Shown: piece after piece, positions 1,252 through 20,432 of the stretch | Layout: each line of letters begins with the position of its first letter | How positions within the stretch are numbered: position 1 is the first letter of the stretch | Assembly: GCA_944358865.1 (NCBI GenBank) | Contig: CALVRV010000010.1 | Location: 1-46,652 of the forward strand | Direction of reading: 5' to 3' | Source: an uncultured Bacilli bacterium | GTDB lineage: Bacteria > Bacillota_I > Bacilli_A > RFN20 > CAG-826 | Length of the DNA stretch: 46,652 nucleotides | Position numbers and translations under genes: made by a program | Notes under the pieces: model-generated | Seen by the model: the letters and a program-made list of their open reading frames with translations, nothing else | What the model was told of the DNA's origin: nothing | The model's database searches: none

Positions 1252-1288
1252 AAACAATTATTGCAAGTGTAAAACGCAATAATTATTT
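1252..1288 (-). terminator. Probable terminator of the surface operon
   Basis: The perfect 9-bp arms AATTATTGC (1256-1264) and GCAATAATT (1276-1284) enclose an 11-nt loop, and the stem extends by three more A-T pairs past one mismatch. Read on the minus strand, the hairpin overlaps the stop codon of the Hint-domain gene and is followed by GTTTTC, a weak T-run. Position and symmetry fit an intrinsic terminator; the short T-tract is the weak point. Confidence 0.5.
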
Positions 1289-4200
1289 GAAATTAAACAC
1301 AAATGGTGAAACAACAATTTCACCAGATTCAATAAGTGAATAATACCAATCTATGAAATAGTAAATCTGCTGATATGTAATTGATCCGTTTCCAACCGCT
1401 AACTTGAAATATGGCCCATTAATTGCATTAAATACTTCAAGCGATACATAATCTGACCATTCTTCATAAGTAAATAATCCATATGTAGCAATAGCTAATT
1501 CTACTTGATTTTGATCGTACATCATATTATCTGTGTAATCAAATATATTATAGAATCCAGTCAACATGCTTGTTACATTCAACATATTATTAGCAACGCA
1601 ATTGTAATTGCTTGCGGTAATTACGGTATATGAACATGTTTGTTTTTGCACTATATCTCCTTTAATTAGAGTAGTTTTTTCTGTTTTGCCATTGCTAACT
1701 TTAGCAAATTCATGACCTATAAATTCTTCATAGTTGCTTGGTGTTATTTCAACATATCTATTTAGTGTCAAGTCATATAAAGCATGAGTAGCTATTAATC
1801 CGATATATGAATTATCGCTGAAATATAATTCAACAACATCGTATAAAGATTCACCGTGATTAACAACAGCAAAGATAGGTTGATATTCGTATTCACCTGT
1901 ATAGTGGTTAAATGATAATAACAAATCATTTTCTGTTAAATCTTCAACTGCTTTTTCGCCGCTCATGGTATTTATAATGGTGCCTTCTTCAAAGCAGCCA
2001 CCAGAGGCTGACCAATCCAAAGTTGCATATGCAATCGGTGTTGCGTGAGCTTCGTCGCTTTTTTTATTATACAATGTTACTGTCATTGTTCCACTCAAAT
2101 TATTATGCGGTCTAATATATAAAGTGGTTTTCAATACATTTTGTAATTCTAAAGTATCCTCATTTCTATCATTTTTAAAGTAAGCTGTGTATGTCCATCC
2201 ATCATTAGCTGGTTCGTTATCTGAAATTTTCCAAACAATATCAAAGACATCACCTACGTTTTCTCCATCTTTAAGGTAATCACTAGTGATATTTAAGCTT
2301 ATTGTTTGTTCTAGAGGATCTGGATCGTTTCTTCCGCCTCCAGTTTTTGTAACTTCTGTTATTTCTTCTCCGTTTTCATCAACTAATTTTAATGTTGTAG
2401 TGGGCCCATATGAAGATAATACTATAGAATTTGAGACAACACTCTTATCTAATTTGTTAGTTATATTTATAGTAACTGTAGCGGTATAACTTCCATTATC
2501 AATATCGCACTTATCAATAGAGATATTTTTAATTAATGGATTATCTGTATCAGTTAATTTTATTTCGTTAGTGTTGATATCATCCCAACTAACAGTATAA
2601 TCTCTCGCTGCTTCAGGATTTATAGTAGCTATAATTTGATCTTCAAATTTGCTCCATCTTGTTTCTGTTTTGCCGGATGCAGTTTTCAAAGTAACGCCCG
2701 TTACTTTATCAACAACTAAAGCAGTATCATTAAAATAATCTAATCTGTCTTCGCTTATATATTTATAACCGCTTTCGATGTTTGTTTTGTTACCTTTCGA
2801 ATTAAAATCAGTTTGAGCATTTAAAGAAATATTCTTACTTGTTGTTGTTTTAAATGCGCTTCCAACAATACTTTTTATGTCATCATCAAACGGTTTATCG
2901 CCTTTCATAAAGTCCGCTAAATTATTAAATGCAGTGATCGCATCCCCACTGTTTATTAAATCCCCAAGACTCATGCTACCGCCTTCAGATTCTGTAGTAG
3001 AAGCGTTTACGCTAGATAAATAATCCACGCTAATAATAGAAGGGGTATAATTTGACGAATTTTCAATCGAACTTTGATTTAATGTAATATAGCCACCAAA
3101 AGAAGCGCCTGCTGCAATGTTTAAAGTTGAATAATTTAATTCAACAACAGAATCTTGCTGTGTATTATAAGTTTTTGTTGTTTCAGTCCAAGATGTATTA
3201 TTATATGCCATGACAGAGTTTATTAAATCTATTTGACAATTTGTAAATCTTACTTGTGCTCCAGGCAACAACTTAACCATATTCGAAATTGTTACATCTC
3301 CGTTATAAAAATTAACATTCATTTGCCACGGAATAGGAAAATAAATATTTTGCGTCGATATCGGAACAATTTGTTCAAAAATTGAAACGTTCAATGTTAA
3401 GTATCCAATGTTGATATCACCATATGCTTTGATAGTGGTAGTTGCTAAACCATCAGCACTTACTGCGGTCTTTGAAATATTGTTAGTATTACCAATATTA
3501 TAACTTTTTCCACCAATCGTTATTGGTGATCTATTCGATGGATTGTATTTTGTAATTACTATTGAATTTGCAGTTGTTTTTAAGATATTTGTATCAGAAT
3601 TACCAACAACATCCACAAAACACACATTTTGTTGTGGATAAAATCTTAAATCCTCCTCATATATACCTTTTAATTTAAGCGCCTCTTTTATAAGACCTCC
3701 CATAAAACCAGCGTTATCGAGTGTTTGATTCAAATCCTGATATCCGGTATATAGGTCTGCACGAGCTTTAATCGCTCCCGAATTTTGCGTTGTTATAGTT
3801 GAATGAATGTTAGGCATGTCATATTGTGAAAACGGGCATTCATTACCTTGAGCGTATATAGCAATAGTCGCTGTTCCGCCACCATAATCATAAACGACAA
3901 AAGGAACATAAATTGTTCCATTATTTATTATTTGCGTATAGTTTAATGCCTCGTTAACATTATTTGCTTCTTTTATATAACCCCTGACATCTAAAATGCC
4001 ACCGGCATCAACACTAATTTTTGCTCCGTTTAGCAATATGACTTGTGAATAATACCCGCTAGTATGCCCATTTAAATCCGTTCCCGGTTTTCCTAACTGA
4101 CCATAAATAACCATTTGGCTATTATTTGATATTGTTAATTTAACGTTTTCATCAATTATGAGAGTGGATGAAATTTTGCTAGTAGAACCATTAGCATCAG

Positions 4201-4717
4201 CAAAATTAGATAACGCACTATCATATTCTGCTAAGGTTTTGTAAGGTTCTTCCTTGGGATAATTATTGCCTCCAGACGTATACAAATATTTTGCAACATA
4301 TAATCCATCTTCACCTTTTCTAATTTCTGTCATTTCTGGAGCGTCTAATTTTACACGAGTATTATTTCCATCAAGAGTAGTGGAATAATCAGTAGTATAA
4401 GGCATTAATAAATCAACACCTGATTGCAAGGTTGTATCGTTATTGATATAGACAGTTTTGTTAGGAATTACTATAACTGTAGCATTACTAGCAGTTCCTT
4501 TTCTTACATATTCATTAGCGTCTTTTATTGCACCTTCTAATGAACTATAATAATATCCAGTTTCATCAATATAACAAACAGAATTATCTTCTCTAATGTT
4601 GCTTGGTCCACCATTTATAGTGGGGCTTGTAATTATCCATGTTGCAGAGCCACTTACTGCTAGTGATAAAGAAAGTAAACCAAATAATATAGCAAAACTA
4701 GTTTTTTTATGCTTCAT
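1283..4717 (-). CDS. Exported protein with C-terminal Hint domain
   Basis: A 1144-residue protein. It starts MKHKK and a hydrophobic stretch ending near SGSATW (residues 23-28), a signal peptide resembling SipW-type ones. The long middle part is rich in Asn, Ser, Thr and Ile and looks like beta-solenoid or Ig-like sheet (inference). At Cys908 a Hint domain begins: CFEEGT, then a GEKAVEDLTENDLLL stretch like the G..IEDL..GD of inteins and hedgehog proteins, then ATH (His978) and a late NYNCVANNML segment. About 90 further residues follow. In the family, the first Cys attacks its own preceding peptide bond, so the 907-residue exterior part could be released or attached to something. The Thr that normally sits three before the His is here directly before it, so activity is uncertain. 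A good SD (AAGGAGG) precedes the ATG, 5 bp after the gene at 4723-5433. Confidence 0.8.
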   Translation of the reverse strand: MKHKKTSFAILFGLLSLSLAVSGSATWIITSPTINGGPSNIREDNSVCYIDETGYYYSSLEGAIKDANEYVRKGTASNATVIVIPNKTVYINNDTTLQSGVDLLMPYTTDYSTTLDGNNTRVKLDAPEMTEIRKGEDGLYVAKYLYTSGGNNYPKEEPYKTLAEYDSALSNFADANGSTSKISSTLIIDENVKLTISNNSQMVIYGQLGKPGTDLNGHTSGYYSQVILLNGAKISVDAGGILDVRGYIKEANNVNEALNYTQIINNGTIYVPFVVYDYGGGTATIAIYAQGNECPFSQYDMPNIHSTITTQNSGAIKARADLYTGYQDLNQTLDNAGFMGGLIKEALKLKGIYEEDLRFYPQQNVCFVDVVGNSDTNILKTTANSIVITKYNPSNRSPITIGGKSYNIGNTNNISKTAVSADGLATTTIKAYGDINIGYLTLNVSIFEQIVPISTQNIYFPIPWQMNVNFYNGDVTISNMVKLLPGAQVRFTNCQIDLINSVMAYNNTSWTETTKTYNTQQDSVVELNYSTLNIAAGASFGGYITLNQSSIENSSNYTPSIISVDYLSSVNASTTESEGGSMSLGDLINSGDAITAFNNLADFMKGDKPFDDDIKSIVGSAFKTTTSKNISLNAQTDFNSKGNKTNIESGYKYISEDRLDYFNDTALVVDKVTGVTLKTASGKTETRWSKFEDQIIATINPEAARDYTVSWDDINTNEIKLTDTDNPLIKNISIDKCDIDNGSYTATVTINITNKLDKSVVSNSIVLSSYGPTTTLKLVDENGEEITEVTKTGGGRNDPDPLEQTISLNITSDYLKDGENVGDVFDIVWKISDNEPANDGWTYTAYFKNDRNEDTLELQNVLKTTLYIRPHNNLSGTMTVTLYNKKSDEAHATPIAYATLDWSASGGCFEEGTIINTMSGEKAVEDLTENDLLLSFNHYTGEYEYQPIFAVVNHGESLYDVVELYFSDNSYIGLIATHALYDLTLNRYVEITPSNYEEFIGHEFAKVSNGKTEKTTLIKGDIVQKQTCSYTVITASNYNCVANNMLNVTSMLTGFYNIFDYTDNMMYDQNQVELAIATYGLFTYEEWSDYVSLEVFNAINGPYFKLAVGNGSITYQQIYYFIDWYYSLIESGEIVVSPFVFNFK

Positions 4718-4722
4718 ATTAT

Positions 4723-5433
4723 TTAATTACCTCCTTTTTGAGAAATTGTTGCACTTACATTAAAAGAAAATGGGGAAGTTACAGGAGCAATCCAATTATA
4801 AAAACTTGTATAATTATCTCTATTATGGAATGTTGTGTAATATCTTAAATGAAAATACATTTCTTCATTAGCGTTTAAATCTAAATCAGTTTTAAACCCA
4901 ATAAAAGCACTTCCATTTGTTAAAGATTGGCCAACAGTATTAACTGTAGTAGCGTTATCACCACTTGCAGTTAAATCATTTTGATCAGTTGTATAAGTAA
5001 TGTCAGCGCCTTTTCTTTCAAAATTAACATCTAAAAAGTAAGTATAATCAGTAATATTGTTTTGTCCTATTTTAATTTGAAAATCTGCTTCATAATTATT
5101 GATGGTTTGTTTTGAAACGACATGAAAATATAAATCAAAATAGCATGTAAAATTATAAATTTGATATGTTTCCCCACTATCTAGTGTACCTTCATGGATA
5201 AAACCGCGTTCATTATAATCACTAATTTTATAATTGTATACTTGGAATCCTTCTCTTACGTTAGTCAAATTAATTTCAATAATATTAGCTATATCGATTT
5301 TGCCTTGCAAAGATTCATCATTACCACCATAAATATTAAAACTAGCAAATCCCGCACTAAAAAGAGATAGACTAGTAAATATTAGTCCTGCATAGAATAG
5401 TCTTTTAGCTGTGCGATACTTGCTTCTTTTCAT
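4723..5433 (-). CDS. SipW-type secreted protein
   Basis: A 236-residue protein with an N-terminal KRSKYRTAKR basic segment, a hydrophobic core (about 12-30) and a junction LFSAGFASFNIYGG of the kind seen in SipW-processed precursors (TasA/CalY-like). The rest is a small beta-rich domain with many Asn, Tyr and Thr and no Cys pairs. No SD is visible before the ATG; instead a promoter (5471-5443) puts the expected transcription start about 3 nt before it. It is followed 5 bp later by the Hint-domain gene, so the two may form a separately regulated end of the operon. Export is well supported; the exact function (fibre subunit, anchor, adhesin) is unknown. Confidence 0.7.
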   Translation of the reverse strand: MKRSKYRTAKRLFYAGLIFTSLSLFSAGFASFNIYGGNDESLQGKIDIANIIEINLTNVREGFQVYNYKISDYNERGFIHEGTLDSGETYQIYNFTCYFDLYFHVVSKQTINNYEADFQIKIGQNNITDYTYFLDVNFERKGADITYTTDQNDLTASGDNATTVNTVGQSLTNGSAFIGFKTDLDLNANEEMYFHLRYYTTFHNRDNYTSFYNWIAPVTSPFSFNVSATISQKGGN

Positions 5434-5442
5434 AGTTGCTAA

Positions 5443-5471
5443 ATTATAATATATAAATATATATTATTCAA
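5443..5471 (-). promoter_or_regulatory. Internal SigA-like promoter for last two genes
   Basis: On the minus strand, TTGAAT (5471-5466), a 17-nt spacer and a perfect TATAAT (5448-5443) overlap the stop codon of the preceding lipoprotein gene. The -10 box ends 9 nt before the ATG at 5433 and there is no Shine-Dalgarno, so the transcript would have almost no leader. Confidence 0.6.
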
Positions 5472-6573
5472 CAATACTCCATCTTGCGTACAAAATTATG
5501 TCGCTATAAACAGGGGTATTATTAGTAAATTGTCCTACTGTTGGATTATATTCATTACTAGTATACCAACCCATAAATTCATAATTATCACGAATAGCGC
5601 TTGGTAAAACATAGCCAAGATTATTTAAACTTGAACCATTTGGAATTTCATATTGGTTATTACCAATTAATTTTGCACTTGCATCACTAGATGCATTTAA
5701 GTCAAAACTAACTTTATGAGTCACCTTATTAGTGTTGTCTAAACTAATAATTAATTCCCATCTATTATTCGTGTAACGATATATTGAATATGAAGATATA
5801 TTAAAATAATAATCACCCTCACTACCAATAACATTATTATCATTAGGATTACCTTGTCCAGATTGCCATCCTCTTGGCACGACTAAGGTATGATCTTTAA
5901 TATCAAGTGTCCCATCTTGATTTCTATATGTAACAGTGATGGTAAAAGTTACATCATTTTTAAAAACATTAATTGATTGAATACCAGCACCTTCTTTTCC
6001 ATCTGGTAGTGGTGGAATAATAATAGTGGATGTTGTTTGATTACTATATTGAATTGTTAATATTACTGTATCATCCTCATTTACAATAGATGTAACACCA
6101 ATAATTGATACACCATCATCGCCAGTTAATCCTTTTTGAATGTTAAATGATAATACTTCATTATTACTTAAAATAATATTAACAGTGTTTGAACCATCAC
6201 TATTTTTGGTCTCGTTTATTGATAATATATAGACACCTTCTTCAATAGAAAATGTGATTGGATCAATATTTTCATCTGTATAAGTAATTGTAATATCAAT
6301 TTCACTATTAAATTCATCTTTAACCTGGGTAATACTTTCAATCCCATTTCCTAATTTACCTTGGTTTACAATAAATACCATTGGTTCTTGTTTAGGATCA
6401 TCAAAAGTAATTGTTAATTGTAAATTACCATCTTCTAATTGTTCACAAGTAAAAGAATTAATTAAAGTATTTGTATCATTTGTTTTAAAAAACGAACAAG
6501 AAGTAAGACTAATAAGAGGTAATGACACAACACTTATTAGACCAAGAAGAAATTTATGCCATTTTCTTAGCAT
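5464..6573 (-). CDS. Lipoprotein with InlB-type repeat (paralogue 2)
   Basis: A 369-residue lipoprotein. The start is taken at ATG 6573 because GGGAGG lies 10 nt before it; the frame is open further to a TTG at 6591 with no site of its own. The signal peptide ends in LTSC, so Cys26 would be lipidated. The body has several repeated beta modules of about 45 residues with Gly-Asp/Gly-Asn turns (GNGIESI, GDDGVSI, GAGIQSI). Then comes a segment ending in NRWELI, and a C-terminal InlB B-repeat-like unit (HKVSFDLN through NYEFMGWYTS to ILYARW). It is a clear paralogue of the next gene upstream, with 2 nt between that stop and this start. It is expected on the outer face of the membrane; the ligand is unknown. 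Confidence 0.82.
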   Translation of the reverse strand: MLRKWHKFLLGLISVVSLPLISLTSCSFFKTNDTNTLINSFTCEQLEDGNLQLTITFDDPKQEPMVFIVNQGKLGNGIESITQVKDEFNSEIDITITYTDENIDPITFSIEEGVYILSINETKNSDGSNTVNIILSNNEVLSFNIQKGLTGDDGVSIIGVTSIVNEDDTVILTIQYSNQTTSTIIIPPLPDGKEGAGIQSINVFKNDVTFTITVTYRNQDGTLDIKDHTLVVPRGWQSGQGNPNDNNVIGSEGDYYFNISSYSIYRYTNNRWELIISLDNTNKVTHKVSFDLNASSDASAKLIGNNQYEIPNGSSLNNLGYVLPSAIRDNYEFMGWYTSNEYNPTVGQFTNNTPVYSDIILYARWSIVE

Positions 6574-6575
6574 TT

Positions 6576-7727
6576 TTAAATAGCCTCCCAATGTGCATAT
6601 AAGATCATATCTTGATAAATTGGTGTCGTATCAGTAAACATACCAATTGTCGGATTATCATAAGTAGGGGAAGTATACCAACCCATAAATTCATAATTAT
6701 CACGACTCGCTAGAGGCATCTTATAATCTAAACAAGCAAAATATCTACCATTAGGAATATTTTCAAACGCTGTTTGGACTAAAGAATCATCTTGTGATAT
6801 AAATTTAGCGCTTTCATCGCCTTCAGCGTTTAAATTAAATGAGACACTATGAGTGTCGGTCAAACCAGAATTATCTAAATCGGCAATTAAAACCCATCTA
6901 CCATTACTATATTTATATATAGTGTAATTAGATTCGTTAAAATATAAATCACCTTCCACACCACTTATATTAGGCGCACCACTTCCACTATACCATGAAG
7001 CAGGAACAGGGAATTGCACTGTTGTTCTTGTTTCTTCTACACCATTAAATAAAGTAAATGTAATTTGATACATTCCATCTTCTTGTGTAAAAGTAATGCT
7101 TTCTAAATTGTTTCCATTCGCCCCATTACTAGGTGCAGGAATTCGAATAATTGATGGTTCTTGTTCTGGATCAGAATAAGTAATAGTTAAAACAATATCT
7201 CCTGTTTCTTCATCAATTGTAGAAGTAACACCGCTAATGGATGTACCATCTTTTCCTGGATCACCTTTTGGAATATCAAATGTTAATGTTTCGCCATTAC
7301 TTAATTTAATTTGTAAAGTAGAATTACCATCTTCATCAATTAAAATATTACCTTCATCATCTAATAGTTGTTCAATTGAAGAAATGCTAATGCCATTTGC
7401 AATATCAAAGCTAACAGGATCCATATTATCATCAGTGTAAGTGATTGTTACTGTTGTATATGTACCATCATCACTTAATTCTTGTTGAATTGATTCGATT
7501 CCATTACCAGTTTCACCTTGAGGAATTGTTACTGATACAGGTTCATGACTATCGTCAGTAAAAGTAATAGTTAATCGAATATTGCCATCACTTAATGTTG
7601 TAGCAATAATATCTTCAATCATAACAACATCGCTTTTAAAGAACCCACCTGTACATGAAGTTAAACTAATAAGTGGCAAACTAAATAGTGACAGTGTCAT
7701 CAAGCATAATTTCTTTATTTTATTCAT
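6576..7727 (-). CDS. Lipoprotein with InlB-type repeat (paralogue 1)
   Basis: A 383-residue lipoprotein whose signal peptide ends LISLTSC, making Cys25 the lipid site. It has the same plan as the downstream gene: successive short beta modules (GETGNGIESI, GKDGTSISGV, GANGNNLESI), a conserved SWYSGSGAPN...GDLYFNESNYTIYKYSNGRWVL block, and a C-terminal InlB B-repeat-like unit ending DMILYAHW. The shared signal peptide core and order of modules indicate tandem duplication. InlB B-repeats are common in surface proteins of gut Firmicutes; binding function is not shown. It follows the beta-helix gene by 4 bp. Confidence 0.82.
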   Translation of the reverse strand: MNKIKKLCLMTLSLFSLPLISLTSCTGGFFKSDVVMIEDIIATTLSDGNIRLTITFTDDSHEPVSVTIPQGETGNGIESIQQELSDDGTYTTVTITYTDDNMDPVSFDIANGISISSIEQLLDDEGNILIDEDGNSTLQIKLSNGETLTFDIPKGDPGKDGTSISGVTSTIDEETGDIVLTITYSDPEQEPSIIRIPAPSNGANGNNLESITFTQEDGMYQITFTLFNGVEETRTTVQFPVPASWYSGSGAPNISGVEGDLYFNESNYTIYKYSNGRWVLIADLDNSGLTDTHSVSFNLNAEGDESAKFISQDDSLVQTAFENIPNGRYFACLDYKMPLASRDNYEFMGWYTSPTYDNPTIGMFTDTTPIYQDMILYAHWEAI

Positions 7728-7731
7728 CTTA

Positions 7732-10206
7732 TTATAATTCCTCCTTAGCGTTGTTAATTAAATCATTGATATTTGGTGTTTCACCATATAAATAACCTTG
7801 CTTATAACCCATTACTTTAAATGGTGAAAATCCAATTGCTATTGGTACACATCTAGCCAAGACATTTAATATCATTTCACCAGAAGAAGTGACAGGTTTA
7901 GTTAAAGAATAAGTAGTGATATCAATATCTTGTGGTGATGAAAGATATTCCTTACCAACACTATTATCGATAACACTAGATAAATTTAGACCTCCGCCAT
8001 AATAAACAATCGGAGTGTTAACATATAATTTAACACTAGAAGATTCTTCATCTAAGATTTGATGTCCTATACCCATATTCATAGCCTCTTCTTTAAGTAT
8101 CTTACGATATGGGAATATCGAGTCAACATTGACTTCAACACCTTCAAAAATATCTCCTAATTGACCATCTTCACCTTCAAACATACGAGAGATGTTTTCT
8201 TTAATAATAGAAGAAACATCTAATGAATCAACTTCTTTATAATCATAAAATTTAGTATTACCTGATAAAGTTACTTGGCTTGGATAATTCACACCAGATA
8301 TATGTTCCATATTAAGCATAGGCACCATTGATTGTAATACTTGATTAATTAAAGTAGGTAAAGAATTATAAACATACGCACCATTAAACATTGTTTCTAA
8401 AGAAATAGAAGCAATTCCACTTTGATAGAAGTATGTATCATTAACATTTACTGTTGTCTTATATATTGGATTATTGTCTTGGTCAACAATTTTACTTATT
8501 GGTGACAAGACATTTTGCATTGCTTCTAAAGCTTTTAAAACATTATCTAAAGAAACACTTCCAAGTATATCTGTTCCATAGGCAGCCATATTCATTAAAA
8601 TATTATCTGCAATAGAAAGATTTTCAAAATCCATTCCATCACTAGATTTAGCAAAAAATTCATTTGTAGGAATATTTAATGATTGGCCATTAATATCATA
8701 GACACTAACATTTTGTGTGTGATCAATTTCTTCATATTCATTCGTGCCTACTGATAATAAGAATTGTCTAGCGTTAGTTAATAAAGAATTATCTAATAAG
8801 AAATTTTCACTAGAATACACTCTAACATTATTTTTCGCATTTCTTATTTGACTATTTTTGATTGTAATATTATCGCCAAAAACATCAATACCAGTACCGA
8901 CTGTATTTAAATTGTTTAAATTATTGCCAAAATCTGCATTACGCATATTTATATCATTTAATGTGATATTATTACCATCAACATAAATTAAACTATTATC
9001 TTGACCATATGCTTCTATTAGTAATGTCGCATCATTATTATGGTCGCCTAACGTGACAAATGGTAGGGGTCCTCTAAATAAATCATCACTTCCTAAAATA
9101 GGAATTGTTACACCATCACTAGAAACACTAGTTAATGTAGGATAAGTTAAATTATGGCCATTAATAATAAAACCATTGCCATAAAAATCTTTTTGAATGT
9201 GGATACCAGATATAACTAAATTAGAGATTTTATCTTGATTTACCGCGTTCCATTCTTCAATAAATTTATCATTGTAAGTCGTTTCAAAACGATATACTTC
9301 CTCATCAAAATTTAGTTCTTGTTCTTCAAAATCAAAATTACCAAATAATTTAGTATCTTCATTTAAATATTCATCAAAATAATATATTTCATTGCCTCTT
9401 ATTTCACTTCTATAAGTATTAATTAGAGATTCTAAATTAGTTTGTAACACTCCAATTAAACCATCATTAGAATAATTTGTGCAATACAATAAGTCGTTAT
9501 AATCGTAAATATTATAACCATCTTTAACAATACCAAATTCATATGTAGATTTAATTTCAGTATTGGCAATGCTAAAAGTTAAATAAGCATCTTCAACATC
9601 TTCATTAATATTTTTAAATGTGATTTTGTTGTTGCCATAACTGACATTATCACTTGAATCATCTAAGACTAAATGTCGTTGCATATCGCTTGGTAAAACT
9701 TCAACAGATAAAGATATTTCTTTATTAGTGTGACCATCATGATTGTTATTAAAATCATATTGTCCAAAATATTGTTTATCATCAATCATCGCAGAAGAAG
9801 TATTTTCTAAACTATTAATGATAATTGCGCCATCTTCAAATATAACTGCATTAAAAGATCTAGATATTGTATTACGTAAATTTGATACCGTAATAGTGGT
9901 CTCACCAGCGCTTAAAGCATTTAAATAATAAGAATCGTTTTCTTGACTAATTGATGCATATTCACTATTAGAGGTGGTCCACACTAAAGCATTACCTAAA
10001 TCTTGTAAAGCTTTTTCGCTTCCAACTGGTGTTGCTTCTAATAATGTTTTGCTATTAATTGCAAAACCTTCATTTTGACGATAATCAAAACGGATGTCTT
10101 GTAGATCTTCGCTGACAAGATTGACATTAAAATTAATCGCATAAACACTAAGAATTGATACTGCAAATGGCAAGATTAATAGAATTGGTAAAGATTTTTT
10201 AGACAT
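7732..10206 (-). CDS. Exported beta-helix protein with Ig-like domain
   Basis: An 824-residue exported protein. ATG 10206 is chosen because GGAGG stands 12 nt upstream; a TTG at 10218 abuts that site and is unlikely. Residues 1-23 form a signal peptide (KKS, hydrophobic run, VYA). Next comes a Big2-like bacterial Ig domain (LVWTTSNSEYASIS...LSAGETTITVS). The centre has short Ile/Asn-rich turns typical of a right-handed beta-helix (NNITLNDINMRNADF, GDNITIKNSQIRNAKNNVRV). The C-terminal 300 residues are unassigned. No LPXTG or other wall anchor is visible. The ABC permease gene ends 1 nt before this start, so the transporter may serve this protein or its partners (inference). Confidence 0.75.
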   Translation of the reverse strand: MSKKSLPILLILPFAVSILSVYAINFNVNLVSEDLQDIRFDYRQNEGFAINSKTLLEATPVGSEKALQDLGNALVWTTSNSEYASISQENDSYYLNALSAGETTITVSNLRNTISRSFNAVIFEDGAIIINSLENTSSAMIDDKQYFGQYDFNNNHDGHTNKEISLSVEVLPSDMQRHLVLDDSSDNVSYGNNKITFKNINEDVEDAYLTFSIANTEIKSTYEFGIVKDGYNIYDYNDLLYCTNYSNDGLIGVLQTNLESLINTYRSEIRGNEIYYFDEYLNEDTKLFGNFDFEEQELNFDEEVYRFETTYNDKFIEEWNAVNQDKISNLVISGIHIQKDFYGNGFIINGHNLTYPTLTSVSSDGVTIPILGSDDLFRGPLPFVTLGDHNNDATLLIEAYGQDNSLIYVDGNNITLNDINMRNADFGNNLNNLNTVGTGIDVFGDNITIKNSQIRNAKNNVRVYSSENFLLDNSLLTNARQFLLSVGTNEYEEIDHTQNVSVYDINGQSLNIPTNEFFAKSSDGMDFENLSIADNILMNMAAYGTDILGSVSLDNVLKALEAMQNVLSPISKIVDQDNNPIYKTTVNVNDTYFYQSGIASISLETMFNGAYVYNSLPTLINQVLQSMVPMLNMEHISGVNYPSQVTLSGNTKFYDYKEVDSLDVSSIIKENISRMFEGEDGQLGDIFEGVEVNVDSIFPYRKILKEEAMNMGIGHQILDEESSSVKLYVNTPIVYYGGGLNLSSVIDNSVGKEYLSSPQDIDITTYSLTKPVTSSGEMILNVLARCVPIAIGFSPFKVMGYKQGYLYGETPNINDLINNAKEEL

Positions 10207-10207
10207 A

Positions 10208-11806
10208 TTAATTAACAACCTCCAATCCTAAAACATCATTTTTAAATTTCCTGATAAGGTAATATATAACATATCCTAACAATATAAAGACAATAATTAG
10301 GTCAAATAAATAAGTATAAATGTTAAGCCATCCTAATAAAGACGCTAGTAAAATGTTTACACCACATATAATTAAAGGAATAAAAAATGATAAAAAGTTA
10401 GATAAATAAGAATTAGCTTTTTCAAATTTGCTACTTCTTAGTTGTTCTTTTAATGAAAGAACCATCAATGAGAAAATAATAATAATTGATAATAATAATC
10501 CCATAAAGAATGTATCTAGACCAATTAAAGAAGTAGAAACTAAAACAATAAATGTAATTATTGTTGCAAACAAACTACAAATAAATGGAATTAATAATTT
10601 AATATAGACATGTTTATACATTGAATAGGGGATATATTTCATAACACGTATTGTTTTTAATTCAGATTTATAAATATTAACTGCGTTTAAAGAAATAACA
10701 CTTGAAAATAATAACGCCATTAATAAATCAAAATTATTTAATAAATAAGGCATAATAGTGATATATATTGCTAAATTACCTCTTAATAAGGCAACATTAA
10801 TTGCATTTATTACTAAAAATGTTAAAACTGGTTGTAAAATAATTAAACTTGTAAATGAATATGTCGTATCATTTTCTTTAAAAAGAAGTAAAAATTCCTT
10901 TTTAATAATCGCACGATCACTTTTTAAAATGTGATATTGGTATTTATTATTATGTTCTTTAACAAATTCAAATTGATTAACTTTGACATAAAATAAGGCA
11001 ATTAAAGAAACACCAATTGCTAGGGCAATTAAACTTATGACTAAATAAATAATAAAGTCAACACCATGACTAAAATTTAAATACGAAACACATAAATATG
11101 AATAAGGGTAGAAGTTATGCGCTAGATCATTAATTAACGCTAAATTTTCACTTGAAAATAATATTTGCATTGAATTGTTATTCATTAAATCTACAAATAG
11201 GTTTAAAACTAAAGAATATAAATAACAGGCAAATGATAGACCAAGTGCGACGATAATTAATTGCACGATTGGATATTGTTTTAATAAACGGTATATATAT
11301 TGAATTGGAATAGAAATAATTAATGAGATTCCAATATTTAATAAACTTAAAAATAATGGATAAAATATTGTAGCAAAACCTAGAAGTGTCTGCATCGCTA
11401 CTTTTGGTACAATACTATATAAAATAGGGAAATTAATGACCGCGGCAAAAACATAATTGATAATTAAACAATATATTAATTTAGAAATAATAATTTTCAT
11501 ATAATCAATAGGCTTATTTATTGTTAACGACATATCAAGCCGATTGAAAAATATTCTTTGTACATAAAATATGGAAATTATTAATGAAATTAACGCGACG
11601 ATTATTAAAAATAAAACACTGAAAGAAAAACTCGCCCCTTCATAAGCATCAAATTTATCATATAAAGAATTAAATAAAAATGTTTCGATCACAACAAGAC
11701 CAACAATAAGAATAATAGCTAAAAGAAAAGACAACCAATTTTTCTTATTTGGTTTGATAAAAAATGGATTAAGCTTAAATTCTTTTTTAAGCAATGTAAT
11801 CATCAT
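10208..11806 (-). CDS. ABC transporter permease
   Basis: A 532-residue polytopic membrane protein with about 12 hydrophobic segments and a larger cytoplasmic part in the middle (around residues 285-310), as in ABC-2-type or ATP-driven export permeases. It overlaps the ATPase gene by 20 bp, with AGGAG before a doubled ATG (11806 and 11803; the second has better spacing). The pair would form one transporter. Substrate cannot be read from the sequence; its place between an AAA+ ATPase module and a run of exported proteins suggests an envelope role. Confidence 0.85.
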   Translation of the reverse strand: MMITLLKKEFKLNPFFIKPNKKNWLSFLLAIILIVGLVVIETFLFNSLYDKFDAYEGASFSFSVLFLIIVALISLIISIFYVQRIFFNRLDMSLTINKPIDYMKIIISKLIYCLIINYVFAAVINFPILYSIVPKVAMQTLLGFATIFYPLFLSLLNIGISLIISIPIQYIYRLLKQYPIVQLIIVALGLSFACYLYSLVLNLFVDLMNNNSMQILFSSENLALINDLAHNFYPYSYLCVSYLNFSHGVDFIIYLVISLIALAIGVSLIALFYVKVNQFEFVKEHNNKYQYHILKSDRAIIKKEFLLLFKENDTTYSFTSLIILQPVLTFLVINAINVALLRGNLAIYITIMPYLLNNFDLLMALLFSSVISLNAVNIYKSELKTIRVMKYIPYSMYKHVYIKLLIPFICSLFATIITFIVLVSTSLIGLDTFFMGLLLSIIIIFSLMVLSLKEQLRSSKFEKANSYLSNFLSFFIPLIICGVNILLASLLGWLNIYTYLFDLIIVFILLGYVIYYLIRKFKNDVLGLEVVN

Positions 11807-12581
11807 TTTTCTCCTTTTCTTCGCTACGTTTATACATATCTAAGAATATTTTGTTAAGTTGATAACGTTTATCTGGATCTTTATTTAAATCAATTACTTT
11901 TTCTATTCGACCATTATTAACTAATGCGACACGATCACAAATTTTCGCTACTAAATCGATGTTATGAGATGTAATAAAAATAGTTTTTTGATGTTTTTTA
12001 AATTCAACCATCATTTCTTTTAATGTTTCAAAAACCATGATATCTAAACCAACAGTTGGTTCATCCATAATCCACACTTTAGGATTAGCGATAAGTGAAG
12101 CAATAAGACATAATTTTTGTTTCATACCATGACTATAAGTAGCAATTATTCTTTTTAAATCAGCGTCTGGTAAATCTAATTTGTTAGATAAATATTTTAA
12201 ATTATTTTGATAAGCATCATCGCTCATATTGTAAACTGAACCAATAAATTGCAAATATTCATAGCCAGTCATCATTTCATATGTTGTTGGTTCACTAGAT
12301 ACATATCCAAATTGTTTTTTAGCTTTAAATGGTTCTTTTAAAATATCAAAACCATTGATGTAGATGTGCCCGCTGTCAAATTTTTTCGCGCCAATCAAAC
12401 AATCAATTGTTGTTGATTTACCGACACCATTTTTACCGACATAGCCAAATAATTCGCCTTCATAGACTTCTAGGTTTAAATCATTGAGGACATGTTTTTT
12501 TCCATAAGATTTATTTAAATTTTCAATTTTAATGGCAATTTTTTTATCATTATTTTGATTTTTTAATTCTTCTTGTTCCAT
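11787..12581 (-). CDS. ABC transporter ATP-binding protein
   Basis: A 264-residue ABC ATPase with all core motifs: Walker A GKNGVGKST (49-57), signature YSHGMKQ (149-155, the variant common in CcmA/drug-exporter-type ATPases), Walker B VWIMDEP (169-175) and the switch His206 in SHN. It acts on the cytoplasmic face with the overlapping permease. The start has an AAAGGATG ribosome site. It follows the DUF2357 gene by 12 bp in the same operon. Confidence 0.93.
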   Translation of the reverse strand: MEQEELKNQNNDKKIAIKIENLNKSYGKKHVLNDLNLEVYEGELFGYVGKNGVGKSTTIDCLIGAKKFDSGHIYINGFDILKEPFKAKKQFGYVSSEPTTYEMMTGYEYLQFIGSVYNMSDDAYQNNLKYLSNKLDLPDADLKRIIATYSHGMKQKLCLIASLIANPKVWIMDEPTVGLDIMVFETLKEMMVEFKKHQKTIFITSHNIDLVAKICDRVALVNNGRIEKVIDLNKDPDKRYQLNKIFLDMYKRSEEKEKNDDYIA

Positions 12582-12593
12582 AAAACATCCTTT

Positions 12594-13979
12594 CTAGACA
12601 ATTGATTTAAGCCATATCGTATTATCTTTAATAAACGAATAATGTCTTTGGCAATTTAAACACGAATAATCATCATGATTATCCATAATTTCTTTTTCTC
12701 CACATATTGGACATGTCTTAACATATATATTTTTTAAAGCTTCAATCGTATAAGTTAAAGATTCAATAAATACGCAAATCAATTCAAAATCCTTTTGAAA
12801 TGGCGATATTTTGATTTCTTTAAATTGACCATCTTGATATTTTTTAATAAAGTCATAACCAAAAATAACAATATTGTTATAAGAAGATGTATCAATATTA
12901 GAAATATCAATATTTATTTCTTGTAATTGACTAATGCTGTAATAAGGAATAAATAATGTTTTTGAATAATCATATAAATTTTTAATATTTCTTACATATA
13001 TTTCATATCCTAAAACACTATTATTAAATCCTATTGAGACAACAAATTGATCATTTTTAAATGAAAATATCGCGTCACCTGCAACAATATCTTTATTAAA
13101 GGGATGATATTTACTTTTTGGGTAATCATCAATATATAAATAGCCTTGTCTTCCTAAAGATTTAAATAATAACAACAAAGTATAATTAATCAATGAATCT
13201 TGTCCTTTTTTAATATCAACCATTTCATTTGTCTTATTCATGAAACGATATATTTTATTGTATTGACGATTGTCTTTAAAAATATTTGTTAACATTATTT
13301 TGCCTGTCACAGGTTTAAAATGTTTTAAAGAAAGATAAAAACGAGAATTACGAATTCTTTTCATCTTGTCATTTAATTTATCGATAAATTCATTGAGTTT
13401 TGCAAAGAATAATTCTTTATTTGTCAATAAATTTGAAACAAGCATCTTATTTGATTTATAAAATTTACTTGAATAAGTATAGTCATTTTCATTACTAGTG
13501 TTATTTAAAGTTAAAATTTTACTATTGTAATAATATGAATAATTTTTAATCAATAATTCCATACGATTTAAGCATGTCATAACAACACGGTTTTCGTATG
13601 TATTTAAATCGTCATCAATTTCATAACTATAAGCATATTCTGGGGTCATTTTAAAATCTTTTTTTGACCATAATTTGCTATCTTTTAATGTCTTTTCAAA
13701 ACTTTGATTATCAAAAGTGGATATTAATGAACTTCTTAATATCACTTCATTGTTTTTAGTAGTTAAATAATGCTTTCTAGTAATAGTTAAAACAGTATTT
13801 AAGATGTCATTTAATTGTTTTAAAAATTCTAAATCAAAATTAAAATCAATCTTAAAAATATCTTCTAATCTTTTACTTTCTAAAACAAGATAAGCACTTT
13901 GTTTAGTGCTTACTTTATTAAAGGCTACTAATAATTCATCAGATATGTTAAATAATGTTTTAACATTATTAAGACGCAT
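12594..13979 (-). CDS. DUF2357/McrC-like protein with zinc ribbon
   Basis: A 461-residue protein. Residues 124-133 (DLNTYENRVV) and the helical stretch after it match the conserved 'YENR' region of DUF2357 proteins, which accompany McrB-type ATPases in McrBC-like systems. A C-terminal zinc ribbon has Cys423, Cys426, Cys440 and Cys443. I do not see an intact PD-(D/E)xK nuclease pattern: the segment AGDAIFSFKNDQFVVSI has the Asp but no E-x-K. It lies 13 bp downstream of the AAA+ ATPase gene, the same pairing as mcrB-mcrC. It may couple the ATPase to a non-DNA substrate here. Family assignment is from motif memory, not from a search. Confidence 0.7.
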   Translation of the reverse strand: MRLNNVKTLFNISDELLVAFNKVSTKQSAYLVLESKRLEDIFKIDFNFDLEFLKQLNDILNTVLTITRKHYLTTKNNEVILRSSLISTFDNQSFEKTLKDSKLWSKKDFKMTPEYAYSYEIDDDLNTYENRVVMTCLNRMELLIKNYSYYYNSKILTLNNTSNENDYTYSSKFYKSNKMLVSNLLTNKELFFAKLNEFIDKLNDKMKRIRNSRFYLSLKHFKPVTGKIMLTNIFKDNRQYNKIYRFMNKTNEMVDIKKGQDSLINYTLLLLFKSLGRQGYLYIDDYPKSKYHPFNKDIVAGDAIFSFKNDQFVVSIGFNNSVLGYEIYVRNIKNLYDYSKTLFIPYYSISQLQEINIDISNIDTSSYNNIVIFGYDFIKKYQDGQFKEIKISPFQKDFELICVFIESLTYTIEALKNIYVKTCPICGEKEIMDNHDDYSCLNCQRHYSFIKDNTIWLKSIV

Positions 13980-13992
13980 AAATACTCCCTAA

Positions 13993-15804
13993 TTATAAGC
14001 GTTTAATCATTTGATCAATCATATGCTTAGACATTTTAAAGTCTTTATTTGGATATAATTTTTCAATTAATTTCTTTAAACCAATTAGACTATCTTTTAT
14101 ATAATCTTCAAAACGTCCTTCTAATTTATATAAAATTTTTCTTGATAGCATAAAATCAAGAGCTTCTAATTTTGTTCCACCACATTTAACATAAACAGGA
14201 ACAAAATTATTAATTTGATTCATAATACGGTTACCAAAGGCAACATCGAAATTATCTAAAACAAATTTAGTAACTTCATTAAATGTTGATAAATCTTCTT
14301 TTGTTAAAGAATTGTTTTTATCTTTTAAGGCTTCATCAAATAGTTGTTGTAATTGATGATAACCAAGATGAATAGCTTCGACATCTTCTTTAACCACAAA
14401 AGGTTCATTTTTATCATCAAAATCTAAAATGATCGCTCTATCGTAGACTTTATCAGAGATAGAATAAGTTGAATCGTCTTTGTTAGCGGTGCAAACAAAG
14501 TAAGTGTTTTCTTCTATTTTTAAAATACCATCATGAAGCATTGATGGCGCATCAAATTCATAAGGAAGATTCATAACACGAATTTTCCAATCTTGTTTTG
14601 GATATTCTAATAAAGAAAGAAAATCTGCAAAATAATATTCAACACGAGCAATGTTAAATTCATCTAAAACCATAATGTTAATATGGTCTTTTAAATAATT
14701 CGCGCGATATAAACTTTTTAAAAAGTCAGTTTCATTATAAGTTTGGCTAAAATCATTAAAATAGCCAATTAAAGAAGTCTTATCTCTAAATGTAGTTTGG
14801 ATTGCTAAAAAATTAGATTCGCTAGAAATAAATTTAGCAAAATATCTAGGTAAAGAAGATTTACCAGTACCAGATAGACCTTCTAAAATGATGATTCTAG
14901 AAGTAGCAAAAGCGGAAATAAAACTTCTAATTGTTTCTATATCAAAATATAAATTTTCTTTTTTACAAAGATAATTTCTAAAGTCGTTACAAAGTTTTTC
15001 TAAATTAATATTTACTTCTGGTAAATTATTTTCTTCAAAACCAGAAAATTCTTTATCAATGGTAGATAAAGAAGGAAAGACCTTTTCACGATCTCCTAAT
15101 TCAAAAGTTGTTTGACCCATGCTAGCAGAAGCACTTCCTCCAGCAATAATTGCGTTATTAGCGTTACTAGTGGAAGCTTTAATATCTCCAAATTCTGCTT
15201 CAATATGGTTTTGTTCATCTATTTCTTTTTCTTCTTCAGCATCAATATTAGCTTCATATTGAACTTGTTCATCAATATTGAAGAAACGATAAGGTTTATC
15301 AATATTTTTAAAGTTAACAATAAGTAAGAAAACAGCAAAGATAATTAAAGCAAGAATAAGATAAATTATGACACTTATTAATAACGAACCACCAAAAGCC
15401 ATCATTATTAATCCAACATTTTCTTTATCAATAATGCTCGCTAATAAAAGTCCTAAACCTAAAGAAAGTAATAAACATAAAACTAGCCATCCTAAAACAA
15501 TTAAAATCCATTTATATGACCAGAATCTTTCTTTTCTAAATTTAACTAAACGTCTAATTAAAATTAATCCTGCATCAAAGACAATGCCATAAATAGTGAA
15601 TAAAAATCCAACTAAATATCCCATTGTACCAAGCTCAACAGAAGGGAAATTAAACCCCAAATAGATTAATTCAACAGGATTTTCTTTTGCCATGAAAGTA
15701 TGAGATCCATCAACACAAACATAACAAAATAAAAACAAAATAAAAAATAAAAATACAAATCCTAACTCAATTAAATTTTTTCTTGTAAAATATACTTTTT
15801 TCAT
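13993..15804 (-). CDS. Membrane-anchored McrB-like AAA+ ATPase
   Basis: A 603-residue protein. Four hydrophobic segments occupy roughly residues 11-31, 60-83, 99-124 and 131-165. An acidic stretch (EEEKEIDEQ) and an Ala/Gly/Ser linker (216-230) follow. The AAA+ domain starts near 290: Walker A GLSGTGKS (309-316), Walker B MVLDEFN (378-384) running into ARVEYYFADFLSLLE, sensor-1 Asn441 in CTANKDD, and ISDKVYDRA (449-457) with the Arg456 finger. The DEFN-ARVEYYF block and ISDKV..RA are typical of McrB-family ATPases, not of classic MoxR. Anchoring in the membrane is unusual for a restriction motor. Its ATG shares ATGA with the signal peptidase stop and has a strong GGAGG. Confidence 0.85.
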   Translation of the reverse strand: MKKVYFTRKNLIELGFVFLFFILFLFCYVCVDGSHTFMAKENPVELIYLGFNFPSVELGTMGYLVGFLFTIYGIVFDAGLILIRRLVKFRKERFWSYKWILIVLGWLVLCLLLSLGLGLLLASIIDKENVGLIMMAFGGSLLISVIIYLILALIIFAVFLLIVNFKNIDKPYRFFNIDEQVQYEANIDAEEEKEIDEQNHIEAEFGDIKASTSNANNAIIAGGSASASMGQTTFELGDREKVFPSLSTIDKEFSGFEENNLPEVNINLEKLCNDFRNYLCKKENLYFDIETIRSFISAFATSRIIILEGLSGTGKSSLPRYFAKFISSESNFLAIQTTFRDKTSLIGYFNDFSQTYNETDFLKSLYRANYLKDHINIMVLDEFNIARVEYYFADFLSLLEYPKQDWKIRVMNLPYEFDAPSMLHDGILKIEENTYFVCTANKDDSTYSISDKVYDRAIILDFDDKNEPFVVKEDVEAIHLGYHQLQQLFDEALKDKNNSLTKEDLSTFNEVTKFVLDNFDVAFGNRIMNQINNFVPVYVKCGGTKLEALDFMLSRKILYKLEGRFEDYIKDSLIGLKKLIEKLYPNKDFKMSKHMIDQMIKRL

Positions 15805-16805
15805 TTGATATTTTCCTCCTCTTCTTGAGCGTGATCAATGTTTCCTAATTTAATTTGGATATTGTCATCACTTGTTTTAATTACTGTGACAACTTCTCCT
15901 TTGTTAGAAGGTTTATGTTCATCATCTTCTTTAATTGCTTCTTTTCCGATAAATTTTTCAGCGTTAAATTGATAAACATAACCTCGGTAATATATTCTTT
16001 CGATGAAGTCATGAGAGACATCTTTATGCTCCAAATCAACATCGATAACATTCATAAGTTCTTTTGTTCTTTGTTCAAGTTTTTTATCTATCTTGTCTTG
16101 TAAGATACCAAACAAGACTAGACAATACATAATTGCGATTACTGTAACAATACCAGAATTTGATTGCAAGAAGATAATAAATATGCCCATAAGTGGTATG
16201 TTAAAACCATTATAAACACCAATTATATCTTCGTATGTAGTATCCCAAGAATCGCTTTGATCATTCGCGTCCCCGCGCGTGATATAATTATTTCCATCGA
16301 TTTCAATAATTCGATGGATGATAATATTTCCTTCGTCATTTCTAAAGGCGATAACATCATAAAGATTAATATCTTCTTTTTCTTTTTTTGTTATTCCAAT
16401 GATATCAAATGCTTGAAATTGATTATCATAATTTTCTAAATAAGTATTAACTTCATTTTTATAAGACATTGATCCAGTTTCAACAACAATAATAGAATTT
16501 TCTCCTACTACAATTGATCCACCTGATATTCGGTTTATTACAGATAAGACGAACACCCCAAGAACTAATCCTGTGAAAACATAAGAAATAGTTTTGATTA
16601 AAATGACAAATATCTTGTGTTTTTTTGACTTAGCTTTGAGCTGTTCGTCTATGTTGTTGTCAATAATATCGATGTCTTGACGTCCTTGCGCTATAGACTT
16701 AATGGAACCCCTATAGTAATGGACATAAAACAAAGTAAATACGATTGATAAAGAGATAACACATAGCGAAGTTACTACAAGAGTTAGTATTTCTTCGCGT
16801 GACAT
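15801..16805 (-). CDS. sipW: Signal peptidase I, SipW/ER type
   Basis: A 334-residue membrane protease that would cut signal peptides outside the membrane. Catalytic Ser112 lies in ETGSMS and His164 in IIIHRI; the following TRGDAND (177-183) is the third conserved box. A Ser-His pair, not Ser-Lys, marks the SipW/archaeal/eukaryotic branch. Hydrophobic segments lie at about 6-31, 66-90 and 204-235. The soluble C-terminal tail of about 95 residues is longer than in Bacillus SipW. It lies 20 bp after the TasA-like gene, with no clear Shine-Dalgarno. Its neighbours with SipW-type signal junctions are the likely substrates. Confidence 0.9.
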   Translation of the reverse strand: MSREEILTLVVTSLCVISLSIVFTLFYVHYYRGSIKSIAQGRQDIDIIDNNIDEQLKAKSKKHKIFVILIKTISYVFTGLVLGVFVLSVINRISGGSIVVGENSIIVVETGSMSYKNEVNTYLENYDNQFQAFDIIGITKKEKEDINLYDVIAFRNDEGNIIIHRIIEIDGNNYITRGDANDQSDSWDTTYEDIIGVYNGFNIPLMGIFIIFLQSNSGIVTVIAIMYCLVLFGILQDKIDKKLEQRTKELMNVIDVDLEHKDVSHDFIERIYYRGYVYQFNAEKFIGKEAIKEDDEHKPSNKGEVVTVIKTSDDNIQIKLGNIDHAQEEEENIK

Positions 16806-16825
16806 ATGTTAATATTTTTTAAAAA

Positions 16826-17563
16826 TTATTCACCAACAGTATTTAAAGTTGCTTCTAATGTAACTTTAAATTTTAATCCATTTAATGAATATAGGTTATT
16901 TAAAGCAGTCTTAACATCACTAAATGATGTGCTAGCACCAGCAGCATCATAATATAATGAGGGATTTATATTACCAAAGACTGAACCCCAATTTAAAACA
17001 AGATCTAAATCAAATGTACCATCAGTGTCGCTAACTGTTAAAGGAGTTCCTTCTCCTCCAACTGGACATGCTTTTTTTGCTGTATTGTCTGGTGTTCCTG
17101 CTTTTGTATCAGTGTAAGTGAGAGTTAAATATTCATATTCAGTAGCGCCGGTATCTGTTGTTACATATTTTTTAAATTCAGTACTTTTATCTACTTTTCC
17201 TTCAGCGTCTAGAACAGTAAATGTAAATGTAAGAGCAACATCTGACCAATTAATATCAGCACCTTTGGTTATTGTTCCAGCAATATCAACATGCATATTT
17301 GGAGTTTGTTCTCCTTCTTTTGAATATTGAACTCTACCAGTACTATCAGTGGTATCTGCGTCTAACATAAAATATCCTTTTTCAGGAGGTGTTATTGAAA
17401 TTTCTAATCCTTTGTCGACTACAGTACCAACATTGATATTACCAGTTGTATCTTTTGTTGCTTCATTTGTTAATACAAATGCCGCGGCACCTGTCGTTAA
17501 GAGTGCGACCGCGCTGAATGCAGCAACTCCAATGGTAACTGCTTTTTTGTAAGATTTTGACAT
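16826..17563 (-). CDS. TasA/CalY-like secreted protein
   Basis: A 245-residue precursor: SKSYKK, a hydrophobic core and a TTGAAAFVLTNEATKD junction, as in SipW-dependent substrates, followed by a Thr/Asp/Gly-rich beta domain with NVGTV near its start. In Bacillus, SipW processes TasA and related fibre or surface proteins; the same neighbour order (substrate then sipW) supports this. It is the first gene after a perfect consensus promoter and has a strong AAGGAG site, so it is probably the most highly made protein of the operon. Its G+C looks higher than neighbouring genes, consistent with high expression. Confidence 0.8.
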   Translation of the reverse strand: MSKSYKKAVTIGVAAFSAVALLTTGAAAFVLTNEATKDTTGNINVGTVVDKGLEISITPPEKGYFMLDADTTDSTGRVQYSKEGEQTPNMHVDIAGTITKGADINWSDVALTFTFTVLDAEGKVDKSTEFKKYVTTDTGATEYEYLTLTYTDTKAGTPDNTAKKACPVGGEGTPLTVSDTDGTFDLDLVLNWGSVFGNINPSLYYDAAGASTSFSDVKTALNNLYSLNGLKFKVTLEATLNTVGE

Positions 17564-17606: not shown

Positions 17607-17635
17607 ATTATAAGCAAAGCAGAAATTTTTGTCAA
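17607..17635 (-). promoter_or_regulatory. Consensus SigA promoter of the surface operon
   Basis: On the minus strand, TTGACA (17635-17630) and TATAAT (17612-17607) are separated by exactly 17 nt. This is a perfect housekeeping promoter, followed by a leader of about 35-40 nt with AAGGAG before the TasA-like gene. Confidence 0.9.
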
Positions 17636-20397: not shown

Positions 20398-20403
20398 GTC
20401 GTT

Positions 20404-20432
20404 AATATAACATATCAAATATTGAGTTGCAA
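20404..20432 (-). promoter_or_regulatory. SigA-like promoter, likely leaderless
   Basis: On the minus strand, TTGCAA (20432-20427), 17 nt, TATATT (20409-20404). The -10 box ends 6 nt before the ATG at 20397, placing the expected start of transcription on the start codon itself. Confidence 0.55.

Follow-up and report, generated by a model that had tools for sequence, protein, structure and literature searches.

The window, the whole 46.7-kb stretch of DNA analysed here, contains a run of eleven genes in which an McrB-like AAA+ NTPase and a DUF2357 protein stand among genes for a SipW-type signal peptidase, an ABC transporter and exported proteins. The locus raises the question of whether such a pair, which resembles the McrB-like NTPase and McrC-type partner of E. 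coli McrBC, serves DNA restriction or, as the original prediction proposed, a machine for surface assembly or secretion. Re-examination of the window returned all eleven open reading frames (every one on the minus strand), their close spacing (overlaps of 4-20 bp or gaps of 1-30 bp) and a perfect SigA-type promoter, TTGACA-17-TATAAT (17607-17635, minus strand), as they had earlier been described. The promoter sequence occurs once in the window, against 0.25 occurrences expected, and ends 43 bp upstream of the start codon of the first gene. Among relatives, promoters matching at 11-12 of 12 positions lie no more than 200 bp from the leading TasA-like gene in 14 of 54 operons, compared to 6 of 1200 random 200-mers.

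The proteins of the operon

The first gene (16826-17563) encodes a 245-residue protein with a SipW-type signal peptide, which models as a TasA-like fibre subunit: the AF2 model has a pLDDT of 82, and its top VIA match is the TasA fibre 8aur (Z 6.4 over 151 residues, rmsd 3.8, where Z below 8 is the warning level for common folds), followed by donor-strand pilins, of which FimG is the second match overall (Z 6.0). Foldseek alone returned nothing at E < 0.001 for this model, and a profile of the TasA-like proteins found no useful match among PDB sequences. The proteins share the C-terminal motif WG..F...NP.YY, occur in one to seven copies per operon, up to seven of them in tandem, and diverge fastest among the core genes, for every one of which, where tested, pN is lower than pS. 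A SipW-type signal motif, which was picked after these proteins had been viewed, is found in 105 of 132 TasA-like proteins (80%) and 83% of Hint-type proteins, whereas lipoproteins carry it in 13% of cases, other exported proteins carry it in 23%, and none of 60 beta-helix proteins has it.

The second gene (15801-16805) had been called a SipW-type signal peptidase, and the NCBIfam models agree: the SipW model NF046067 matches with E 1.7e-15 (57 bits, under the equivalog cut-off of 190), and the archaeal-type model TIGR02228 scores above its cut-off. The catalytic residues S112, H164, D179 and D185 are invariant in the homologues. This SipW/ER-type enzyme has 334 residues, compared to the 189 positions of the SipW model, and its extra segments, an N-terminal transmembrane segment and loop and a long C-terminal tail, are kept in relatives.

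The AAA+ protein (13993-15804) was predicted to have four membrane segments, and four hydrophobic segments are indeed present (residues 11-29, 65-83, 107-125 and 145-163), forming an N-terminal membrane domain (residues 11-163; 15316-15774) that is kept in relatives, with four predicted transmembrane helices ahead of Walker A in 64 of 73 relatives and five in 6 of 73. The Walker, NxD and arginine motifs are invariant in 12 genomes; the NxD form, which reads TANKDD in the window protein, is found in 71 of 73 relatives. The adjacent gene (12594-13979) encodes the McrC N-terminal-like DUF2357 protein, an assignment that is borne out by matches to PF09823 in 38 of 64 relatives (best 2.1e-11), although the window's own protein gives no match to that model. 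The original prediction that this partner lacks an intact nuclease motif also held: to judge by sequence, the 64 DUF2357 proteins have no conserved acidic or lysine residue past position 232 from which a PD-(D/E)xK motif could be drawn, and the only invariant residues besides M1 are E129, N130, Y240 and the four cysteines of a C-terminal zinc ribbon (C423-C426-C440-C443; 12651-12713). No DNA-binding domain was recognised in the pair. Because hmmsearch against the PDB gave no match for the AAA+ profile, and zinc-ribbon and chance matches only for the DUF2357 profile, neither protein is tied to the McrBC structures by sequence alone.

The transporter consists of an ATPase of the ABC-2 exporter type (11787-12581; PF00005, 1.5e-25; TIGR01188, 2e-53) and a 12-TM permease (10208-11806), whose relatives match PF16949 in 5 of 22 cases and PF12730 in 3 of 22. 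It is followed by an exported protein of 828 residues (7732-10218, with the ATG at 10206 as the likely start), for which the AF2 model (pLDDT 87.5) combines Ig-like domains, with structural matches to the S-layer proteins SbsC and Sap, and a right-handed beta-helix like those of GH110 and GH28 glycosidases (Z 14.9 to 7jw4); its profile found no useful match among PDB sequences. Next is a lipoprotein (6576-7727) with repeat domains, a C-terminal InlB-type (Flg_new) repeat that scores below the PF09479 cut-off, and a lipobox cysteine, C25, that is invariant in 38 relatives.

The last three genes form an accessory tail that is present in many relatives, though not all. They encode a second lipoprotein (5464-6591, most likely starting at the ATG at 6573), which is a paralogue of the first (48% identical; PF09479, 1.6e-7); a putative second, divergent TasA-like exported protein (4723-5433) with a SipW-type signal, at a position common to relatives; and an exported protein of 1144 residues (1283-4717) that also carries a SipW-type signal and has homologues adjoining the operon in about 18 loci. 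With these, six operon products bear an N-terminal signal or lipobox, which is the number of exported or lipid-anchored proteins that had been anticipated. The 1144-residue protein contains a candidate Hint/intein-like domain near its C-terminus (approximately 1568-1996; PF13403, E 0.011, below cut-off), which the earlier description did not include; the Hint-like motif and the tail are conserved in relatives.

Recurrence of the gene set in relatives

The core of the operon, comprising one to seven TasA-like genes, SipW, the four-TM AAA+ protein, DUF2357, the ABC ATPase, the 12-TM permease, the Ig/beta-helix protein and a lipoprotein, was found in dozens of genomes across several families of uncultured Bacilli, and its gene order is identical in 42 of the 53 loci with enough flanking sequence. 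The linkage counts were taken from six-frame profiles; a simple ORF caller took the wrong strand at loci L067, L102, L107 and L108.

Relatives were checked for AAA+/DUF2357 pairs standing apart from sipW and the exported genes. Every AAA+ gene with a homologous four-helix membrane domain has SipW upstream (57 of 57 loci with enough flank) and a TasA-like gene upstream (51 of 51), and the ABC pair and the beta-helix protein accompany it in 47 of 48 cases. The exceptions to linkage (L106, L117, L118, L120, L122, L123 and L125) are AAA+ proteins without the membrane domain. In a set of 279 genomes from the order, the AAA+ protein is found in 58, the beta-helix protein in 61 and both in 56 (p 2.8e-50, uncorrected for shared descent). 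Plain chance assembly of the gene set is ruled out by the gene-order and co-occurrence counts.

A second gene arrangement brings together SipW-type peptidases and exported proteins that bear AWF-type signals with a one-TM McrB-like AAA+ protein, DUF2357 and EAL c-di-GMP proteins, whose genes fit with surface structures.

Known systems and competing explanations

The operon and the Bacillus tapA-sipW-tasA operon both combine a SipW-type peptidase with TasA-like substrates, and the TasA fibre is the top structural match of the first gene product; we know of no AAA+, DUF2357 or ABC transporter gene in the Bacillus operon. The present sequences have diverged beyond the reach of every TasA family model, and the TasA/camelysin models of Pfam and NCBIfam gave zero matches across 59 and 42 TasA-like homologues. 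B. subtilis and B. cereus make their TasA fibres with the help of the chaperone-like proteins TapA or CapP, and no motor of the AAA+/DUF2357 kind has been reported for them (PMC10151520, PMC13082335).

A literature search for SipW combined with McrB found nothing, and the original prediction had called the system undescribed. It is not wholly so: one paragraph of Bell et al. 2024 (PMC11090510) introduces McrBC systems associated with signal peptidases under the name CoCoPALM. The operon shares with these an NxD McrB-like GTPase bearing a membrane part at its N-terminus, a DUF2357 partner and a linked signal peptidase. By its description, CoCoPALM carries an FtsB-like fusion of one TM and a coiled coil, whereas the operon has four predicted TM helices, a DUF2357 protein with a zinc ribbon but no nuclease motif, and a defined TasA-ABC-beta-helix-lipoprotein gene set. 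The description suits the one-TM second arrangement better. Compared to E. coli McrBC, the pair differs in being membrane-anchored, in having NxD rather than NxxD, and in lacking a recognised DNA-binding domain and a conserved PD-(D/E)xK motif.

The operon probably encodes a machine for assembling TasA-type surface fibres, in which a domesticated McrBC-like NTPase would serve as motor or regulator. The fibre role is well supported, and the SipW and TasA-like linkage, the missing nuclease motif and the TasA-fibre match all favour surface assembly or secretion over restriction. TasA-like subunits would be exported, trimmed by the dedicated SipW and assembled into fibres outside the membrane through donor-strand-type contacts. 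The Ig/beta-helix protein would leave by its own signal, as would one or two lipoproteins able to sit in the membrane, and the large Hint-domain protein would be exported via its SipW-type signal. The AAA+ protein would form a hexamer held in the membrane by its four helices, with a cytoplasmic NTPase domain stimulated by DUF2357 as McrB is by McrC. The nuclease-free pair may have given up DNA cleavage and now power or regulate, as a motor or switch, the export, processing or assembly step, perhaps via the cytoplasmic extensions of SipW, and the ABC exporter would presumably carry cargo serving the same cell surface.

Phage defence, in which the NxD McrB/DUF2357 pair would detect infection from its place at the membrane, with the exported proteins as a barrier or effector arm, is an unlikely alternative. 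Other descriptions of the NxD McrB clade place it among relatives of CoCoNuT-like type IV restriction systems (PMC11090510), the AAA+ protein also matches the PADLOC phage-defence candidate PDC-M26A (E 2.4e-37), and the distribution is patchy (58 of 279 genomes); however, DUF2357 has no nuclease motif, no HEPN or other nuclease was recognised among the core genes, most of the core consists of fibre, peptidase and transport genes, and the EAL genes of the second arrangement suit surface structures. We attach a similarly low probability to quality control, in which the pair would extract or inactivate SipW or stalled fibre precursors as a membrane-anchored AAA+ unfoldase. The intact, membrane-anchored AAA+ domain and the conserved extra segments of SipW agree with it, but no protease domain or gene was recognised in the core, and to our knowledge McrB-type AAA+ proteins are not unfoldases.

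The host, an uncultured gut bacterium, probably has no cell wall, and peptidoglycan synthesis is predicted to have been lost in this genome. An S-layer-like or sugar-binding coat, with the beta-helix protein and the ABC transporter as the main actors instead of fibres, is also improbable, somewhat more so than the other two alternatives: the SbsC- and Sap-like Ig domains and the glycosidase-like beta-helix speak for it, and most operon carriers in the window's family give no PBP transpeptidase match, so that a protein coat would be useful to them, but TasA-like genes, the best-matched fibre module, stand first in almost all of the operons and number as many as seven.

Possible implications for fibre assembly in gut Bacilli

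Fibre subunits, their signal peptidase, a transporter and adhesin-like proteins are thus paired with a membrane-bound relative of a restriction motor that shows no nuclease motif. This pairing, repeated in dozens of relatives' genomes, suggests that cells have co-opted a defence motor for building or controlling fibres on their surface. A broader proposal, which we hold only tentatively, is that uncultured, partly wall-less Bacilli run SipW-dependent fibre assembly with a membrane-anchored engine, a restriction-derived McrBC-type NTPase that was domesticated in two or more gene arrangements, and that a Hint surface protein of the system cleaves itself for covalent attachment. TasA-type fibre assembly is not known to need cytoplasmic energy. 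If the assembly-machine reading is correct, an intact McrB-like NTPase coupled to TasA-type fibres would alter that picture, providing a cytoplasmically energised route that is not known for the Bacillus system, and a defence motor would have been converted into an envelope machine. For the CoCoPALM idea, the operon provides a definite set of genes together with substrates and relatives in which it can be tested. It is also a candidate system for surface structures in those gut Bacilli that are predicted to lack a peptidoglycan wall.

Conservation of the operon in related genomes

The eleven open reading frames of the minus-strand operon (17563 down to 1283), their spacing, the membrane segments and a perfect SigA-type promoter upstream (TTGACA-17-TATAAT, 17635-17607), all of which formed part of the original prediction, were borne out in the window. 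The promoter is a trait of relatives too: in 14 of 54 operons an 11-12/12 match is found no more than 200 bp from the first TasA-like gene, compared to 6 of 1200 random 200-mers. Upstream of the operon lies a HipA_C-like kinase gene (19528-20418; PF07804, 4.7e-11), adjoined by a small open reading frame (18756-19541) which has no Pfam match.

A scan of public genomes yielded 80 named loci. Their sources are without exception uncultured Bacilli or MAGs labelled Clostridia, Oscillospiraceae and so on, among them one MAG named Anaeroplasma bactoclasticum. Gene order was counted on six-frame profiles in the 53 loci with enough flank; the order SipW, AAA+, DUF2357, ABC, permease, beta-helix protein, lipoprotein is found in 42 of these, and the lipoprotein precedes the ABC pair in four further loci. 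AAA+ genes with a homologous membrane domain are accompanied by SipW (57/57) and by TasA-like genes (51/51), and only one such locus, L116, is without ABC, permease and beta-helix genes. In the exceptions (L106, L117, L118, L120, L122, L123, L125) the AAA+ match starts at residue 40 or later. At L106, in an Acholeplasmatales MAG, the AAA+/DUF2357 pair lies among many exported proteins, with no SipW match at the locus. Across 279 genomes of the order, the AAA+ occurs in 58, the beta-helix protein in 61 and both in 56 (p = 2.8e-50, a statistic that ignores shared descent). Some 4 kb separate the AAA+ from a beta-helix gene for 45 AAA+ copies, and the membrane AAA+ is also present in two families outside the order. 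Every core gene tested has pN < pS, the TasA-like genes being the most diverged. In genus g32 (L026, L028, L029) the genes for SipW and the AAA+ are separated by that of an exported protein of 840-890 aa.

The AAA+/DUF2357 pair

The AAA+ protein has four transmembrane helices. Its Walker A, Walker B, NxD and arginine motifs are all intact, and they are invariant in 12 genomes and near-universal in 73. The four helices, together with a basic N-terminus, would place the NTPase domain on the cytoplasmic side. The identity of its partner as DUF2357 was confirmed through relatives, with a PF09823 match in 38 of 64. Across 64 sequences the invariant residues other than the start Met are Glu129, Asn130, Tyr240 and the four cysteines of the zinc ribbon. 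These sequences conserve no acidic/Lys pattern of the PD-(D/E)xK nuclease type, although the fold could still be that of an inactivated nuclease. The intact AAA+ motifs, the missing nuclease motif and the obligatory linkage suggest that the pair acts as a motor.

In a sister layout (L032-L038, L146, L148), one-TM AAA+ relatives of about 510 aa adjoin DUF2357, and the set includes a SipW-type peptidase (E 3e-20) as well as exported proteins whose signals are of the AWF type. Two layouts therefore tie a membrane McrB/DUF2357 pair to SipW and its probable substrates. EAL proteins and an MTA/SAH-nucleosidase-like protein also belong to the sister layout, the latter weakly similar to Spiroplasma Fib. 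In L146 and L148, two complete genomes of another family, two SipW-like genes flank the pair. A third arrangement (L149:8086-12328) places a DUF2357 gene between two short McrB-like AAA+ genes of about 450 aa.

SipW and the exported proteins

In profile searches SipW matches both SipW and archaeal-type signal peptidase models, and its catalytic residues are kept (Ser112, His164, Asp179/185). At 334 aa, versus 189 positions in the SipW model, it has an additional helix and loop at the N-terminus and ends in a long tail. A short SipW-type motif ends the signal helix in 105/132 TasA-like and 15/18 Hint-type proteins, and occurs in 0/60 beta-helix proteins, 8/60 lipoproteins and 18/79 other exported proteins; because it was defined after inspection of the same proteins, these counts are a consistency check, not an independent test.

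The first TasA-like protein yields a good predicted model (pLDDT 82), for which VIA ranks the TasA fibre first (Z 6.4), ahead of donor-strand pilins such as FimG. Since this Z is below 8 and the TasA-like proteins have no family-model match, the label is kept at "TasA-like". In the exported 828-aa protein, S-layer-like Ig domains are combined with a beta-helix resembling GH110/GH28 enzymes (Z 14.9), and the permease has a weak PF16949 match in relatives. The 1144-aa exported protein carries a SipW-type signal and, near its C-terminus (1568-1996), a Hint/intein-like domain (PF13403, E 0.011, below cut-off), followed by a tail of roughly 95 aa that is kept in relatives; the domain might mediate self-cleavage and covalent anchoring of the protein.

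Relation to known systems and hosts

Fold, signals and linkage together suggest an operon that would build TasA-type fibres; the fibre, any interaction and an NTPase cycle are inferred. The TasA fibres of B. subtilis and B. cereus form through donor-strand exchange, with TapA or CapP in a chaperone-like role, and the portions of these accounts drawn on here report no NTPase like the window's AAA+ (PMC9674648, PMC10151520, PMC13082335). The NxD motif and the signal peptidase are shared with CoCoPALMs, the signal-peptidase-linked NxD McrBC systems named by Bell et al. 2024 (PMC11090510), but the FtsB-like part is absent from the window set, which for this reason is not classed as a member and is best called a variant that works like a CoCoPALM, set apart from them.

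The penicillin-binding transpeptidase PF00905 has no match in the window's genome (98% complete), which suggests that the host lost peptidoglycan synthesis. Given that PF00905 is present in several carriers from other families, the system would span both walled and, probably, wall-less hosts.
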